Shown here: piece after piece, positions 58,424 to 63,964 of the stretch
How the letters are laid out: each line of letters begins with the position of its first letter
How positions within the stretch are numbered: position 1 is the stretch's first letter
Source: Acidimicrobiia bacterium
GTDB taxonomy: Bacteria; Actinomycetota; Acidimicrobiia; Acidimicrobiales; Poriferisodalaceae
Direction of reading: 5' to 3'
NCBI GenBank assembly: GCA_022827265.1
Contig: JAJDTF010000146.1
Coordinates: 1-64,000 of the forward strand
Length of the DNA: 64,000 bases
Position numbers and translations under genes: made by a program
The notes under the pieces: model-generated
The model's database searches: none
What the model saw: only the letters and a program-made list of their open reading frames with translations
What the model was told of the DNA's origin: nothing

Positions 58424-59422
58424 TCAGACCACCGCCAGCGACCAGACGAGCGGGAGGCCGGACCCGAGCTCGGTCCACTGGGCATCGTCGGACACCTGCC
58501 ATACCTTGCCGGCGTCGGTGCCGACCAGCACCCTGCCCACGTTGTCCGGGTCGGGCACGAGGCCGTGGAAATTGACCGGCGACGGCGAGTGCGCGTCGTC
58601 GCAGAGCGACCGCCACGACTGGCCGTGGTCGTCAGACCTGTAGAGGGCCGCGTGGGCGCCGCCCTCGTCCTTGTAATGCGAGAAGGCCGTGGGGACACTG
58701 GCGACGGTGACGCTGTAGGGATCGCGGCGGTCGATGCACAGCGGGCGCGAGTAGCGCGGCACGACGCCGTTCCAAGCGTACTCCCATGTCTCGCCGTAGT
58801 CGCGGGAGCGGAACACCCCGGCGTTGCCTTCGAGCTCTTCGGCGACACCGTCAAAGCGGCCGTAGCCGGTGCTGATGAACAGCACCCCGGGCTCGGCGGG
58901 GTGGGCGAACATCATGTGGATGTCTGGATTGTCGCCGGGCAGGTCGACCGTCCAGCTCTCGCCCCCGTCGGTAGAGCGGGCCACGCCGCCGACCTCGACG
59001 CCGACCCAGATGCGGGCGGGATCGTGCTCGTCGATGACAAGCGCACGTGCCCGTCCTGGCAGGGGAGGCTCGACCGGCACGCACCAGCGTTCCGCTTCGG
59101 GGAGCGCGGCGAATGCCGTGATCTCGTCCCACGTTGCCCCGCCGTCGTCGCTGCGGAACAGGCCGGCCGGCTCGGTGCTGGCAAACAGCCGGCCGTCGCT
59201 GGCGGCTCGGATCTGCCACACCTCGCGCCCGGCGAGCTGCGGCCCGGCCCAAGTCATGCCCCCGTCGGGGCTGGTGAACAGGCCGCCGGCCGACCCGGCG
59301 AACACGCGGCCGTCGATATCGACGAGGTCGCGGACGTGACGTGCTTCGAGCGTCTGTGTGGCTCCCTCGCCGTCGATGACGAAGACGCCCTTGGTGGTTC
59401 CAGCAAGCAGCTGACCGTTCAT
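58424..59422 (-). CDS. BNR/Asp-box beta-propeller protein
   Basis: A 332-residue protein with five Asp-box repeats: SPDGGMTW, SDDGGATW, STDGGESW, SRDYGETW and SDDHGQSW, which mark sialidase/sortilin-like propellers. No signal peptide is visible (start MNGQLLAGTTKGVFVI), so it is probably cytosolic and not a secreted sialidase. Similar proteins are annotated as exo-alpha-sialidase without proof. Role within this operon is unknown. Confidence 0.82.
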   Translation of the reverse strand: MNGQLLAGTTKGVFVIDGEGATQTLEARHVRDLVDIDGRVFAGSAGGLFTSPDGGMTWAGPQLAGREVWQIRAASDGRLFASTEPAGLFRSDDGGATWDEITAFAALPEAERWCVPVEPPLPGRARALVIDEHDPARIWVGVEVGGVARSTDGGESWTVDLPGDNPDIHMMFAHPAEPGVLFISTGYGRFDGVAEELEGNAGVFRSRDYGETWEYAWNGVVPRYSRPLCIDRRDPYSVTVASVPTAFSHYKDEGGAHAALYRSDDHGQSWRSLCDDAHSPSPVNFHGLVPDPDNVGRVLVGTDAGKVWQVSDDAQWTELGSGLPLVWSLAVV

Positions 59423-59498: not shown

Positions 59499-60353
59499 TC
59501 AAGGGTCGTCGAGCGTGATCGTCCAGCCGGGACCGAGTTCGGCGTCGAAGCGGTGCTGGAACATGGGCACGAGCATCGTGGCGGGCAGGACACATTCGGC
59601 GCAGGCTTCGTCGGGAATGTGGAGGCCGAGTGTGATGTGGCGTCCGGCGACCGACGCAGTGAGGTCGGCACGGTCGGCGCGCAGGACAGCGGCCAACTCC
59701 TCTACGACGCCGGCGACCGCGGAGTCGGTTGCCGGCGCTCTCGACGCGTCGGCGCTGACCTGTTCACCAGCGCGCGCCAGTTGGACATCGGTGCCGATTC
59801 GTCCGTCGTTGCGGGTCGGTTTGGTGCCGCCGGCAGTGAGCAGGGCTAGCACGGTGGGGGTCACCTCATCGGCGACAGCCATTGCCTCAGCCGAAGTCAG
59901 GCTGCCGATGGGGTGGGGCACGGTGGCGAACGGGTAGCCGGCGAAGCCCCGCAGTTCGGCGATTGCCTCGCCGGTGGCGGCGAACGGCTCGGTCAGGATG
60001 GCCGCGGCGGGCACACCCAGCTCCTCGGAGTGCACGGCGTCGAGCACACTGCTCGACGAGCAGCTGCCTCAATCGCCGATGGCGGCGATGATCGCCGTCA
60101 CGTCGGCGGCCAGCGCCTCGACTTCCTCGGGAGCGGCTGGCAGGTTGGCGGTGGGCTTGAGCATCAGCACGGTGTCGCTCGCCCCGTGGGCCTCGATGAG
60201 GTTCTGGGCAACCCGTTGGAGGATCGCGGGGGCGTGTGTCTTGCCGTTGCTCACCAAACCGATGACGGCACCGTCCAGCGAGTCGGCCCGCGGCGCGAGG
60301 GTGGCCCCCGCGTTGGCCACTCGCAGCGTCGGGTCCACCAGGGTGACGGTCAT
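59499..60353 (-). CDS. UGSC-family selenoprotein, Sec at in-frame TGA
   Basis: Read conventionally this is two frames (60353-60069 and 60047-59499). They are one 284-residue protein: the TGA at 60071-60069 is followed by GGC AGC TGC, giving U95-G-S-C, the motif that names the UGSC family. Upstream is DGAVIGLVSNGKTHAPAILQRVAQNLIE; downstream SSSSVLDAVHSEELGVPAAAILTEPFA, continuing in the same frame without another stop for 189 codons. A SECIS-like hairpin lies directly after the TGA. ATG overlaps the stop of its partner (ATGA). A redox function is inferred from the Sec/Cys pair. selA/selB/selC are not in the window. Confidence 0.9.
60038..60071 (-). promoter_or_regulatory. Sec TGA codon and bacterial SECIS-like hairpin
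   Basis: Reading leftward: TGA (60071-60069), 10 nt, then CGTCGAGCA (60058-60050), loop GTG, TGCTCGACG (60046-60038), a perfect 9-bp stem. The loop begins with G and lies about 20 nt past the TGA, within the range accepted for bacterial SECIS elements. Confidence 0.85.
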
Positions 60354-61429
60354 GGCGTGAGTATCTCCTGGGTGATGAGCGGGACGCTGCGATCGCGGCT
60401 CCAGGTGGGGAAGAACGAGGAGTGGCCGCCGGCATCGCCGCCGCCGACCATGAGCGCGATGTCGTCAGGGCACGTCCCGCGGGGAACTGAGATGTCCTCA
60501 TCGCCGGGCTGAACCTGCGGGTCGGTCTCCATCCATTGCGTCGGGTGGAAGCCGGTGACATTGCCGGCCGCTTCGACCTTGCCGCCGCGCTTCACCTCGG
60601 CGTACGTGCGAGTGGCGTGAGCGAACAGGTACTCCTGCACCTGCGCCCGGCTCCAGCCGGCCGCCCCGAGCTTGCGGGCGTGCTCGGGCGCAAACACCAC
60701 CAGCGACCGACCAGAGCTAAGTGAGCCGAACGCTGACATCGTGTCGGCAAACGTGCCCAACAGACCCTCGGGATCGGGCGATGCGTGGTTCAGCACGTTG
60801 TGGCCCGACTCGGCAGCCATGACGGTGACCGTGCTCTGGCCGGGCGAGTAACCCAGCGACACGTGGTAGGGCTCCCACGGGCTGGTCGCCTCGTCCTCTC
60901 CGAAGCACATCGCGTACTTGCCGGCCCAGCCCTGGGTGCTCTTGTCGAGCTTGCCGGGAATGGCCGCGAGGCAGTTGCGCAGCACGAGGCGCACCGCGCG
61001 GCCGACCGTGGCGTTGGCCCGGAAGCCTGGGCCGAACAGGTTCTCCTTGTAGTGGATGCCGATCTCGTTACGGATCGGACCGTTGACCACGATGAGGATG
61101 GCTGCGCCGCCGGTGCTGGCCGACACGGCATGCAGCTCGAAGGCCGGGTCGCCGATGGCGGCGAGAGCCGCACCCACAACCGGGAAGTACTCGGGCAGGC
61201 ACCCGGCCATCACGGCGTTGGCAGCAGCCTTGCGTGCAGTGACCTCCAGGCCGCGTGCGGGTTCGCGCAACAGGACGTGGTCTGCGTCCCACGCACCGCC
61301 GGCCACCATGGCGTCCACCAGCGCCTCAGTGGGCGGCACCACCGGCAGGCCGTCGGTCCAGCCGGCGTCGTAGCAGGCCTCGATGGCCTGCCACGGGTCG
61401 GTCAGTTCGAGATCGCCGTTCGATGTCAT
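60350..61429 (-). CDS. UGSC-associated protein of unknown function
   Basis: A 359-residue soluble protein, translationally coupled to the UGSC gene by ATGA. N-terminal AIEACYDAGWTDGLPVVPPTEALVDAMV, then AANAVMAGCLPEYFPVVGAALAAIGD, VVNGPIRNEIGIHYKENLFGPGFRANATVGRAVRLVLRNCLAAIPG, and the C-terminal CPDDIALMVGGGDAGGHSSFFPTW. No known catalytic motif is recognised. Conserved Cys in AGCLPEY and RNCLA might be partners of the selenocysteine. The tight coupling suggests a two-component enzyme. Confidence 0.75.
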   Translation of the reverse strand: MTSNGDLELTDPWQAIEACYDAGWTDGLPVVPPTEALVDAMVAGGAWDADHVLLREPARGLEVTARKAAANAVMAGCLPEYFPVVGAALAAIGDPAFELHAVSASTGGAAILIVVNGPIRNEIGIHYKENLFGPGFRANATVGRAVRLVLRNCLAAIPGKLDKSTQGWAGKYAMCFGEDEATSPWEPYHVSLGYSPGQSTVTVMAAESGHNVLNHASPDPEGLLGTFADTMSAFGSLSSGRSLVVFAPEHARKLGAAGWSRAQVQEYLFAHATRTYAEVKRGGKVEAAGNVTGFHPTQWMETDPQVQPGDEDISVPRGTCPDDIALMVGGGDAGGHSSFFPTWSRDRSVPLITQEILTP

Positions 61430-61496
61430 GGTCTGCAGTGGCCGCGGCTGAGCGCACCCGCGGCCATCGAACCGGTCTGCCCCAATCCGGTCGCGG

Positions 61497-62492
61497 TCAA
61501 GGGCGGTGCCGGCGTCGGCGAGGACGCCGCCGGACGAGTCGCTCATCGAGCGTCTCGCGAGGGTTTGGCTCTGCGGCGACGATGGGGGCGGGTTCCTCGC
61601 CGGCCAGCACGGCCACGATCTTGGCGGTGTGCTCGGGAGTGCTGCCGCAGCAGGTGCCGATCACGCTCACGCCGGCGGCGTGAACCCGGTGCGAGTGAGC
61701 GGCAAGCAGTTCTGGGGTGCCGTCGTAGGCGAGCGAGTGACCGTGCCACACCGGCACACCTGCGTTCGGCTTGGAGATGACCGGAGTGTCGGGAGCGACT
61801 TGGGCAATGGCGAGCACCGCTGCTTCGGTGTCGGGCACGTTGTTGCCGCAGTTGGCACCGATGGCGGCGACTTCCAGGGGCCCCAGCCGGTCGGCCAACT
61901 CGTTGCCGGTGACGCCCATCATCGTGCAGCCGGCGGTGTCGAAGCTCATGGTGACCGCGACCGGCAGATCGCTCACCCGATGTGCTGCGCGCACGGCAGC
62001 CTCGACTTCGCCGAGCGCGCTCATCGTCTCGATCCACAGCAGATCGACCCCGCCAGCATCGAGCGCAGCAGCCTGCTCGGCGAAGGCGTCTTCGCAGGCT
62101 TCGACGCTCATGTCGCCGAGCGGCGCGAGCAGCTCGCCCGTCGGGCCCATCGAGCCGGCGACCAGCACCGGCCGGTCCGACTGCTGCGTCTCAGCGTCGG
62201 CTTCGGCCCGACCGATCTGCGCAGCGGCAATGTTGAGCTCGCGCACCTGCCGCTCGAAGCCGTGCAGTGACTGCCGGAAACAGTTGCCGCCGAAGCTGTT
62301 CGTCACGATCAAATCGGCGCCAGCCTGCAGGTAGCCCCGGTGGACGGCCCGGATCTCCTCGGGGTGGCTGAGATTCCATTCCTCAGGCGACCAACCCGCT
62401 GACAATCCGGCGGCGAACAGCTGCGTGCCCATCGCGCCGTCGGCCACCACGTACCCCTTGGATTTCACGATGTCATGCAGTGTGACGGTCAT
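61497..62492 (-). CDS. Homocysteine S-methyltransferase family protein
   Basis: A 331-residue zinc-dependent barrel: VVADGAMGTQLFAAGLSAGWSPEEWNLSHPEEIRAVHRGYLQAGADLIVTNSFGGN, with zinc ligands in GANCGNN and GTCCGS. It moves a methyl group to homocysteine or a related (seleno)thiol. It lacks the folate and cobalamin domains of full MetH, so it is a stand-alone Hcy domain such as BHMT or MmuM. The final 15 residues are Arg-rich. It is the first gene of the minus-strand series with UGSC, 67 bp upstream of the partner gene. Confidence 0.85.
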   Translation of the reverse strand: MTVTLHDIVKSKGYVVADGAMGTQLFAAGLSAGWSPEEWNLSHPEEIRAVHRGYLQAGADLIVTNSFGGNCFRQSLHGFERQVRELNIAAAQIGRAEADAETQQSDRPVLVAGSMGPTGELLAPLGDMSVEACEDAFAEQAAALDAGGVDLLWIETMSALGEVEAAVRAAHRVSDLPVAVTMSFDTAGCTMMGVTGNELADRLGPLEVAAIGANCGNNVPDTEAAVLAIAQVAPDTPVISKPNAGVPVWHGHSLAYDGTPELLAAHSHRVHAAGVSVIGTCCGSTPEHTAKIVAVLAGEEPAPIVAAEPNPRETLDERLVRRRPRRRRHRP

Positions 62493-63640: not shown

Positions 63641-63964
63641 ATGGGATCCATGGATGCAGAGATTCGTCCGGCGGCGACGTCGAGGCGGTATTCGCCTGAG
63701 CAGAAGGACCAAGCGGTGCGCATGGTGCTGGCCTTGCGTGCGGAGCTGGGCACCACGGCGGGGACGGTGTCGCGTGTGGCGCGTCAGCTGGGCTATGGGG
63801 TGGAGTCGGTGCGCCGCTGGGTGGCCCAGGCCGAGATCGACGCCGGGACGCGTGCTGGGGTGACTTCGGCGGAGAGCGAGGAGCTTCGGCGGCTGGGTCA
63901 GGAGAACCGTGAGCTGCGGCGGGCGAATGAGATCCTCCAGCGGGCGGCGGTTTTTTTCGGGTAA
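63641..63964 (+). CDS. IS3-family transposase OrfA
   Basis: A 107-residue HTH protein: RRYSPEQKDQAVRMVLALRAELGTTAGTVSRVARQLGYGVESVRRWVAQAE (HTH), then the leucine-zipper-like ESEELRRLGQENRELRRANEILQRAAVFFG. This is the usual IS3 OrfA build. ATG at 63641 has GGAG 6 nt upstream. Its last codons run through GTTTTTTTCGGG, a slippery sequence suited to frameshifting into OrfB, which would begin at the window edge. The left end of the element is probably near 63595 (TGATTCACCC). The right part lies outside. Confidence 0.85.
   Translation: MGSMDAEIRPAATSRRYSPEQKDQAVRMVLALRAELGTTAGTVSRVARQLGYGVESVRRWVAQAEIDAGTRAGVTSAESEELRRLGQENRELRRANEILQRAAVFFG

Follow-up and report, generated by a model that had tools for sequence, protein, structure and literature searches.

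A UGSC-family selenoprotein gene and its partner gene in an Acidimicrobiia genome, with remote profile similarity to the selenocysteine domain of GrdB and PrdB

A stretch of 64,000 nt from an Acidimicrobiia bacterium (GenBank assembly GCA_022827265.1, contig JAJDTF010000146.1, positions 1 to 64,000; the whole of it is referred to here as the window) carries, on its minus strand, what is supported by the sequence as one gene for a UGSC-family (PF24696) selenoprotein, interrupted by a TGA under the standard code. It is very likely that codon 95, a UGA, is read as selenocysteine (Sec), by way of a hairpin, SelB, and tRNA-Sec, and that the UGSC protein is the Sec subunit of a two-protein enzyme formed with the product of the gene immediately upstream, the partner. 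The window protein belongs to a family in print since 2008, in a survey by Zhang and Gladyshev, and its status as a selenoprotein is not in itself new. The association with the partner and a kinship with the Sec domain of GrdB and PrdB are the parts that go beyond known family membership and are worth following. The 2008 survey (PMC2398784) ranks UGSC with the most frequent selenoprotein families of ocean metagenomes, at 255 Sec sequences, and in a 2026 review (PMC13188914) it stands among proteins with functions largely uncharacterised. Genomes, contigs, and loci are given below by handles beginning with G, C, and L, G000 being the host genome.

The in-frame TGA and its probable decoding

The UGSC gene (59499..60353, minus strand) ends in a stop TGA at 59501-59499 and, when the internal TGA is read through, encodes 284 residues, with Sec at position 95 and 189 residues beyond it. 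The internal TGA (60069..60071, minus strand) is followed by GGC AGC TGC, the codons for G-S-C, exactly where the sequence-only reading of this stretch had placed it. That reading also held that the frame stays open for 189 codons with family sequence and that standard annotation would split the gene. Both hold: the PF24696 match spans the TGA, over residues 5-173 (165.2 bits, E 2.1e-48; Pfam gathering score 25), and the standard code gives two open reading frames (ORFs), 60069-60353 (94 aa) and 59499-60047 (182 aa). The U/C-G-S-C motif is present at the family position, TGA-GGC-AGC-TGC being aligned with CGSC homologues. The window copy shares with the family (PF24696, NF041046) the domain, the motif, the TGA column, and a hairpin resembling a Sec insertion sequence (SECIS); it differs in having an extra C-terminal C-A-E-C domain and in its score against the NCBIfam model NF041046 (UGSC_fam), which at 122.4 bits over model positions 2-147 of 147 is 2.6 short of the cut-off of 125. 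Automatic naming may therefore fail for this gene, and the protein is filed under PF24696, with no claim to the NCBIfam equivalog name. Annotation may cut the UGSC gene and leave the partner nameless, of which users of such genomes should be warned.

Among relatives, 120 matches with a residue at the Sec column, those without the column being dropped, were reduced to 79 loci that are distinct over 60 nt from that codon. The codon is TGA in 73, TGC in three, TGT in two, and ATG in a single weak homologue, so that 78 of the 79 carry TGA or a Cys codon, and the Cys forms align as CGSC in register, in the alignment with Cys homologues that the sequence-only reading had suggested. A second in-frame TGA is found in none of the matched segments of these loci, and the homologues read run past the position, where an ending of close homologues would have spoken for a stop. 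In comparison with nine relatives, the per-site rate of change at third codon positions is about 2 to 6 times that at the first two, before as well as past the TGA, and since this excess continues past the TGA the codons beyond it are under selection. That the TGA is a true stop, the gene being a broken pseudogene or two separate proteins, could draw on the existence of the two standard ORFs, the second of which has a GTG start 21 nt past the TGA. With the TGA kept so widely, Cys alternatives at the same place, no further in-frame TGA, continued selection, and Sec machinery in the genome, this explanation is scarcely credible. In a tree of 77 loci (two divergent ones excluded), several long branches of which are unsure, the Cys label needs three changes, two of them forced by well-supported branches.

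PF24696 was found in 33 of 41 genomes of the same order, most matches having one TGA and no other stop. The nearest relatives of the window gene are from Acidimicrobiia metagenome genomes, in agreement with the actinobacterial origin that had been proposed. The host genome contains five UGSC genes (G000:C113, C56, C74, C61/C46, and C43), each with a TGA, in five different motif contexts (VGD, IGD, YGH, LAD, and MGC). A count of six, from six matches, was discarded: the end of C61 is identical to the start of C46 over 141 nt, and their two matches are therefore pieces of one gene.

The host genome (3.80 Mb in 163 contigs, 93% complete) has the means to use Sec, as the sequence-only reading had implied in suggesting a search for selA, selB, selC, and selD. 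All four are present, including the selB and tRNA-Sec whose absence would have told against it: a tRNA-Sec (67 bits) with anticodon TCA, given as a UCA reading in its name; selB (273 bits), with selA (380 bits) adjoining it on one contig; and selD (355 bits), which has its own in-frame TGA in HGAGUACK with a hairpin folding behind it. A further claim, that selenoproteins are uncommon in most actinobacterial classes, was not supported. Of the 296 phylum genomes sampled, mostly drafts and with presence lists that rest on search thresholds, 189 gave a SelA match; the trait is not rare in the phylum as sampled, classes not being counted apart. A literature search on selenocysteine with Acidimicrobiia found no paper.

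A UGSC match over the Pfam cut-off is present in 22 of the 296 genomes, 18 of them with the TGA form. Every one of these 18 has a tRNA-Sec (anticodon TCA) and 17 have a SelA match. Neither a tRNA-Sec nor a SelA match was found in G141 and G189, and the UGSC genes read there have Cys; a second UGSC match in G141 has no stop inside, its Sec-column codon not being read. In G332 a Cys-form UGSC occurs alongside both tRNA-Sec and SelA. G175, with a weak homologue that has Met at the Sec column, likewise has neither, its tRNA match being a tRNA-Leu.

The SECIS-like hairpin (60038..60058, minus strand) is CGTCGAGCA-GTG-TGCTCGACG, with the loop GTG at 60049-60047. It pairs exactly over 9 bp and starts 10 nt past the TGA, just as had been described together with its G-first loop, and the stem is conserved in the family, where it is defined as 9 bp at offsets 13 to 33 from the TGA with a loop GTN. 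At least eight of the nine pairs form in 56 of the 73 TGA loci and at least seven in 61, the loop starting with GT in 60 of those 61. Over 67 distinct sequences a mean of 7.60 of nine pairs form, against 4.87 with synonymous codons redrawn (500 draws, maximum 5.43), so the protein sequence alone does not account for the stem. Paired cells amount to 84%, and sliding the stem over 1 to 4 nt lowers this to 53% or less; the five Cys forms have 2, 4, 5, 5, and 5 of the nine pairs. The window hairpin on its own is weaker evidence than this family-wide conservation. The 50-nt stretch starting at the TGA is no more stable than its shuffled versions (z -0.29), which weakens the single-sequence evidence; the excised 22 nt stretch gives z -4.1 against shuffles, but was picked for its hairpin. 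When the window sequence was recoded synonymously 20000 times, all nine pairs formed in 234 cases.

Some observations count against the decoding proposed. Two-sided changes in the stem number 31 cells against 11 to 21 in the slid controls, a modest excess only. Fewer than seven pairs form in 12 of the 73 TGA loci (six of seven YGHUGSC, three of three MGCUGSC, L092, L095, and L142); some poorly pairing loci fold other hairpins, those with MGCUGSC forming a 6-bp stem with a 6-nt loop. One UGSC match (G001:C126) holds a TAG besides its TGA, and G075 has a TGA-form UGSC and a tRNA-Sec without a SelA match, owing either to an assembly gap or to SelA being missed by the search. The reading as a UGSC-family selenoprotein, which the sequence-only reading had reached, is supported by the family match across the TGA, the CGSC homologues in register, the conserved stem, and the Sec machinery in the genome. 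The sequence evidence for the decoding step is strong: SelB and tRNA-Sec would decode the UGA at codon 95, directed by the hairpin behind it, to give one selenoprotein of 284 residues.

The partner gene

The partner gene (60350..61546, minus strand) encodes 398 aa from its longest start, and its stop TGA overlaps the ATG of the UGSC gene as ATGA. A start at 61429 is likelier, as conservation begins near there. At E 0.001 neither Pfam nor NCBIfam matches the partner, and in 15 members searched at E 10 nothing was better than 0.1; its profile has one chance-level match in the PDB, at E 2.1. Neither the partner nor the C-terminal CxxC domain of the UGSC protein was mentioned in the sequence-only reading.

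Using a profile built from the window gene, 61 large loci were examined, 60 of them with UGSC. The partner lies within 1.3 kb of UGSC, in either order, in 58 of the 60. The two loci without it (L025 and L029) sit at contig ends, L029 holding the second piece of the L027 gene. The 61st locus (L075) has only partner pieces and a UGSC tail: at L075:5588-6117 most of UGSC and the middle of the partner are gone, and the partner pieces run into the last 39 UGSC residues. Since the loci were selected by UGSC and are partly redundant (L032 being the window, and L125 apparently the contig of L067), the 296-genome survey serves as the independent test of the association. There UGSC is found in 24 genomes at E 0.001, the partner in 23, and both in 22. 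UGSC occurs without the partner in G235 and G310, in both of which it is under the Pfam cut-off. The partner occurs without UGSC in G222 only, where four partner matches are on one contig (G222:C272) and tRNA-Sec and SelA are present. The partner, described here, is thus a near-constant companion of UGSC.

The two are also found joined. In L076, the single Firmicutes locus seen, UGSC and partner form one open frame, and fusion is indicated by an open stretch reaching from the TGA or CGSC codon to the partner in L028 (host C43), L114, L121, L123, and L126. In the 2008 survey UGSC is fused to a domain called 'Unknown_1' (PMC2398784), which may be the same as the partner domain. From adjacency, fusion, and co-occurrence, UGSC would be the Sec-bearing subunit and the upstream partner the other subunit, most likely of a two-protein reductase.

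Wherever a LADUGSC locus has a partner (15 of 15), that protein is extended at its N-terminus by a CxxC segment. A profile of nine of these 15 extensions matched 105 PDB sequences at E 0.1 (best E 1.1e-6), and the best 60 of the 105 are all thioredoxins, therefore the extension is a thioredoxin domain; Pfam at E 1 gave nothing in two LADUGSC partner proteins. Flavin reductase and MauE genes are found in some LADUGSC loci. At L104 (G189, the genome noted above for its lack of tRNA-Sec and SelA matches), a CGSC Cys form with its partner is followed by CoA-transferase III and acyl-CoA dehydrogenase genes.

Kinship of the UGSC domain with GrdB and PrdB

At the level of profile similarity, the UGSC domain is a remote relative of the GrdB/PrdB Sec domain. 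From 60 PF07355 loci of the phylum, 57 GrdB/PrdB-like segments were extracted, all with TGA. A search for solved relatives of the GrdB/PrdB-like pieces gave nothing better than E 0.18. HHalign comparison of 77 UGSC sequences (62 after filtering, Sec written as C) with these 57 gave a probability of 93.5% (P 2.3e-7, score 50.3) and placed the two Sec columns opposite each other. The probability had been 48% with an initial set of only 30; it is 70% over 131 columns for GrdB alone and 75.8% for PrdB-like sequences alone. The register holds for Sec, for the Cys that follows it in PrdB-like proteins, and for positions further downstream, and with the CGSC columns masked the score is still 41.4 (84.3%). 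The score is far above every control: 200 column-shuffled versions score at most 19.8 (probability at most 1.8%), the reversed alignment 17.2, the partner's thioredoxin domain 18.2 (1.4%), and the partner 12.3 (0.1%). No statement of such a kinship was found in the passages available from PMC2398784, PMC13188914, PMC9312934, and PMC5029168, the literature being covered in part.

An AlphaFold2 model of the window protein has a mean predicted local distance difference test score (pLDDT) of 76.8, about 79-94 over residues 21-170, and a predicted template modelling score (pTM) of 0.60. Strands and helices alternate in the UGSC domain, with five strands and Sec95 directly after strand 3. The best 50 of 1365 Foldseek matches are mostly FtsZ, with EngA, flavodoxin, and others, at TM-scores of at most 0.33 by query length, and no thioredoxin is among these 50.

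This bears on the view in the literature that UGSC is a thioredoxin-like thiol oxidoreductase, the partner then being its protein substrate or regulator. The fold was called likely thioredoxin-like in PMC2398784, and in PMC13188914 UGSC is in a list that ends with proteins of thioredoxin-like fold, it being unclear whether those words cover UGSC. The UxxC motif is common to thioredoxin-like selenoproteins and UGSC, and in one subgroup the partner carries a fused thioredoxin domain. The predicted fold, however, is unlike thioredoxin in its alternation of strand and helix, the profile comparison with the partner's thioredoxin domain is at the level of the controls while that with GrdB/PrdB is far above it, and the best 50 Foldseek matches include no thioredoxin. 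A thioredoxin fold was therefore rejected for UGSC, and the thiol oxidoreductase explanation is improbable.

GrdB resembles the UGSC protein in its Sec domain and in having a second subunit as partner, which for UGSC would be the partner described here; it differs in having an N-terminal half that the UGSC protein lacks. GrdB and PrdB are known from amino-acid-fermenting clostridia, whereas the nearest UGSC relatives here are in Acidimicrobiia. In glycine reductase the substrate of the GrdB Sec is bound by way of a second subunit, and the system makes use of thioredoxin. From the kinship, chemistry of the GrdB/PrdB type, a reductive cleavage of a C-N or C-X bond, is suggested by analogy, with the balance only just tipped away from it. 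Sec95 would attack the partner-held substrate at a carbon or hetero-atom. Once oxidised, Sec95 would be resolved by Cys98, as a selenenylsulfide, and then reset by a dithiol module: the partner-fused thioredoxin in LADUGSC loci and possibly the C-A-E-C domain in the subgroup of the window.

Alternatively, the GrdB/PrdB fold and Sec position may serve another reaction, such as peroxide or metalloid reduction or selenide or sulfide transfer. This is a real possibility, although it falls somewhat short of being probable. It is favoured by the remoteness of the similarity, seen at profile level only, by the partner's lack of resemblance to a GrdE-like ORF, and by the acyl-CoA dehydrogenase, flavin reductase, and MauE genes near some loci, which make an aerobic setting plausible; against it are the positions in register and a signal that survives masking of the motif.

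Several results weigh against the reading of UGSC and partner as a GrdB/PrdB-related pair. No PF07355 match was listed in 15 UGSC members at E 10, with filters that drop most matches above 0.1, and UGSC is not filed as a PF07355 member. Part of the similarity could be general to Rossmann-like folds, though the Sec positions coincide. The partner gave an HHalign probability of 0.1% against the ORF beside actinobacterial grdB, which we take to be GrdE, a pyruvoyl subunit of the type to which PrdA also belongs, and a HMMER search of the ORFs of PF07355 loci with the partner profile gave no match at E 10. No similarity of the partner to this presumed GrdE was thus found, and the analogy with GrdB appears to stop at the Sec subunit. 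The model of a fused UGSC-partner protein was poor (pLDDT 55.6) and was not used, so no interface between the two is seen. A search for solved relatives of the GrdB/PrdB-like pieces gave nothing better than E 0.18.

Tentatively, and at rather less than an even chance, UGSC and its partner may constitute a third selenoenzyme branch of the glycine/proline reductase type, one that serves actinobacteria in a setting other than amino-acid fermentation. Such a branch would pair a GrdB/PrdB-related Sec subunit with a substrate-binding subunit that is new and unrelated, of the 'DGLPVVPPT' family, and be fed by fused thioredoxin or CxxC domains. The several paralogous pairs per genome, with five UGSC genes in the host, would presumably cleave different substrates. 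Placing the domain beside GrdB/PrdB and naming the partner would turn an 'unknown redox protein' into a candidate two-subunit enzyme that is amenable to co-expression and assay.

The host genome also has three PF07355 (GrdB/PrdB-like) matches (G000:C119, C26, and C127), one of them under the cut-off. Of these L164 was read; it encodes a UPVC selenoprotein, and an 8-bp hairpin follows its TGA.

C-terminal domain and neighbouring genes

The C-terminal C-A-E-C domain of the UGSC protein (residues about 205-284; 59502..59740, minus strand) is seen in the subgroup of the window. It is modelled as helix-strand-strand-CxxC-helix-strand (pLDDT about 63-81). This topology suggests a possible NifU-C-like identity; in profile searches there is no PDB match at E 10, and among 12 members a single Pfam match, to PF01106 (NifU), at E 0.077.

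Upstream of the partner is a homocysteine S-methyltransferase family gene (61497..62492, minus strand), matching NF005718, betaine-homocysteine S-methyltransferase, at 338.5 bits (cut-off 338), and the partner's longest start falls within its ORF. Downstream of UGSC is a BNR/Asp-box (sortilin-like) repeat gene (58424..59422, minus strand), identified by Pfam. Relatives of each are present in nine loci of the window's subgroup, a count that includes the window and one contig seen twice. The neighbours were rejected as a clue to the substrate, since they differ between subgroups and the methyltransferase is seen only in that of the window. Transposase-like ORFs, presumably of IS3 type from their look, occur at 63641-63964 of the window and, beyond it, on contig C56, downstream of an enoyl-CoA hydratase gene.
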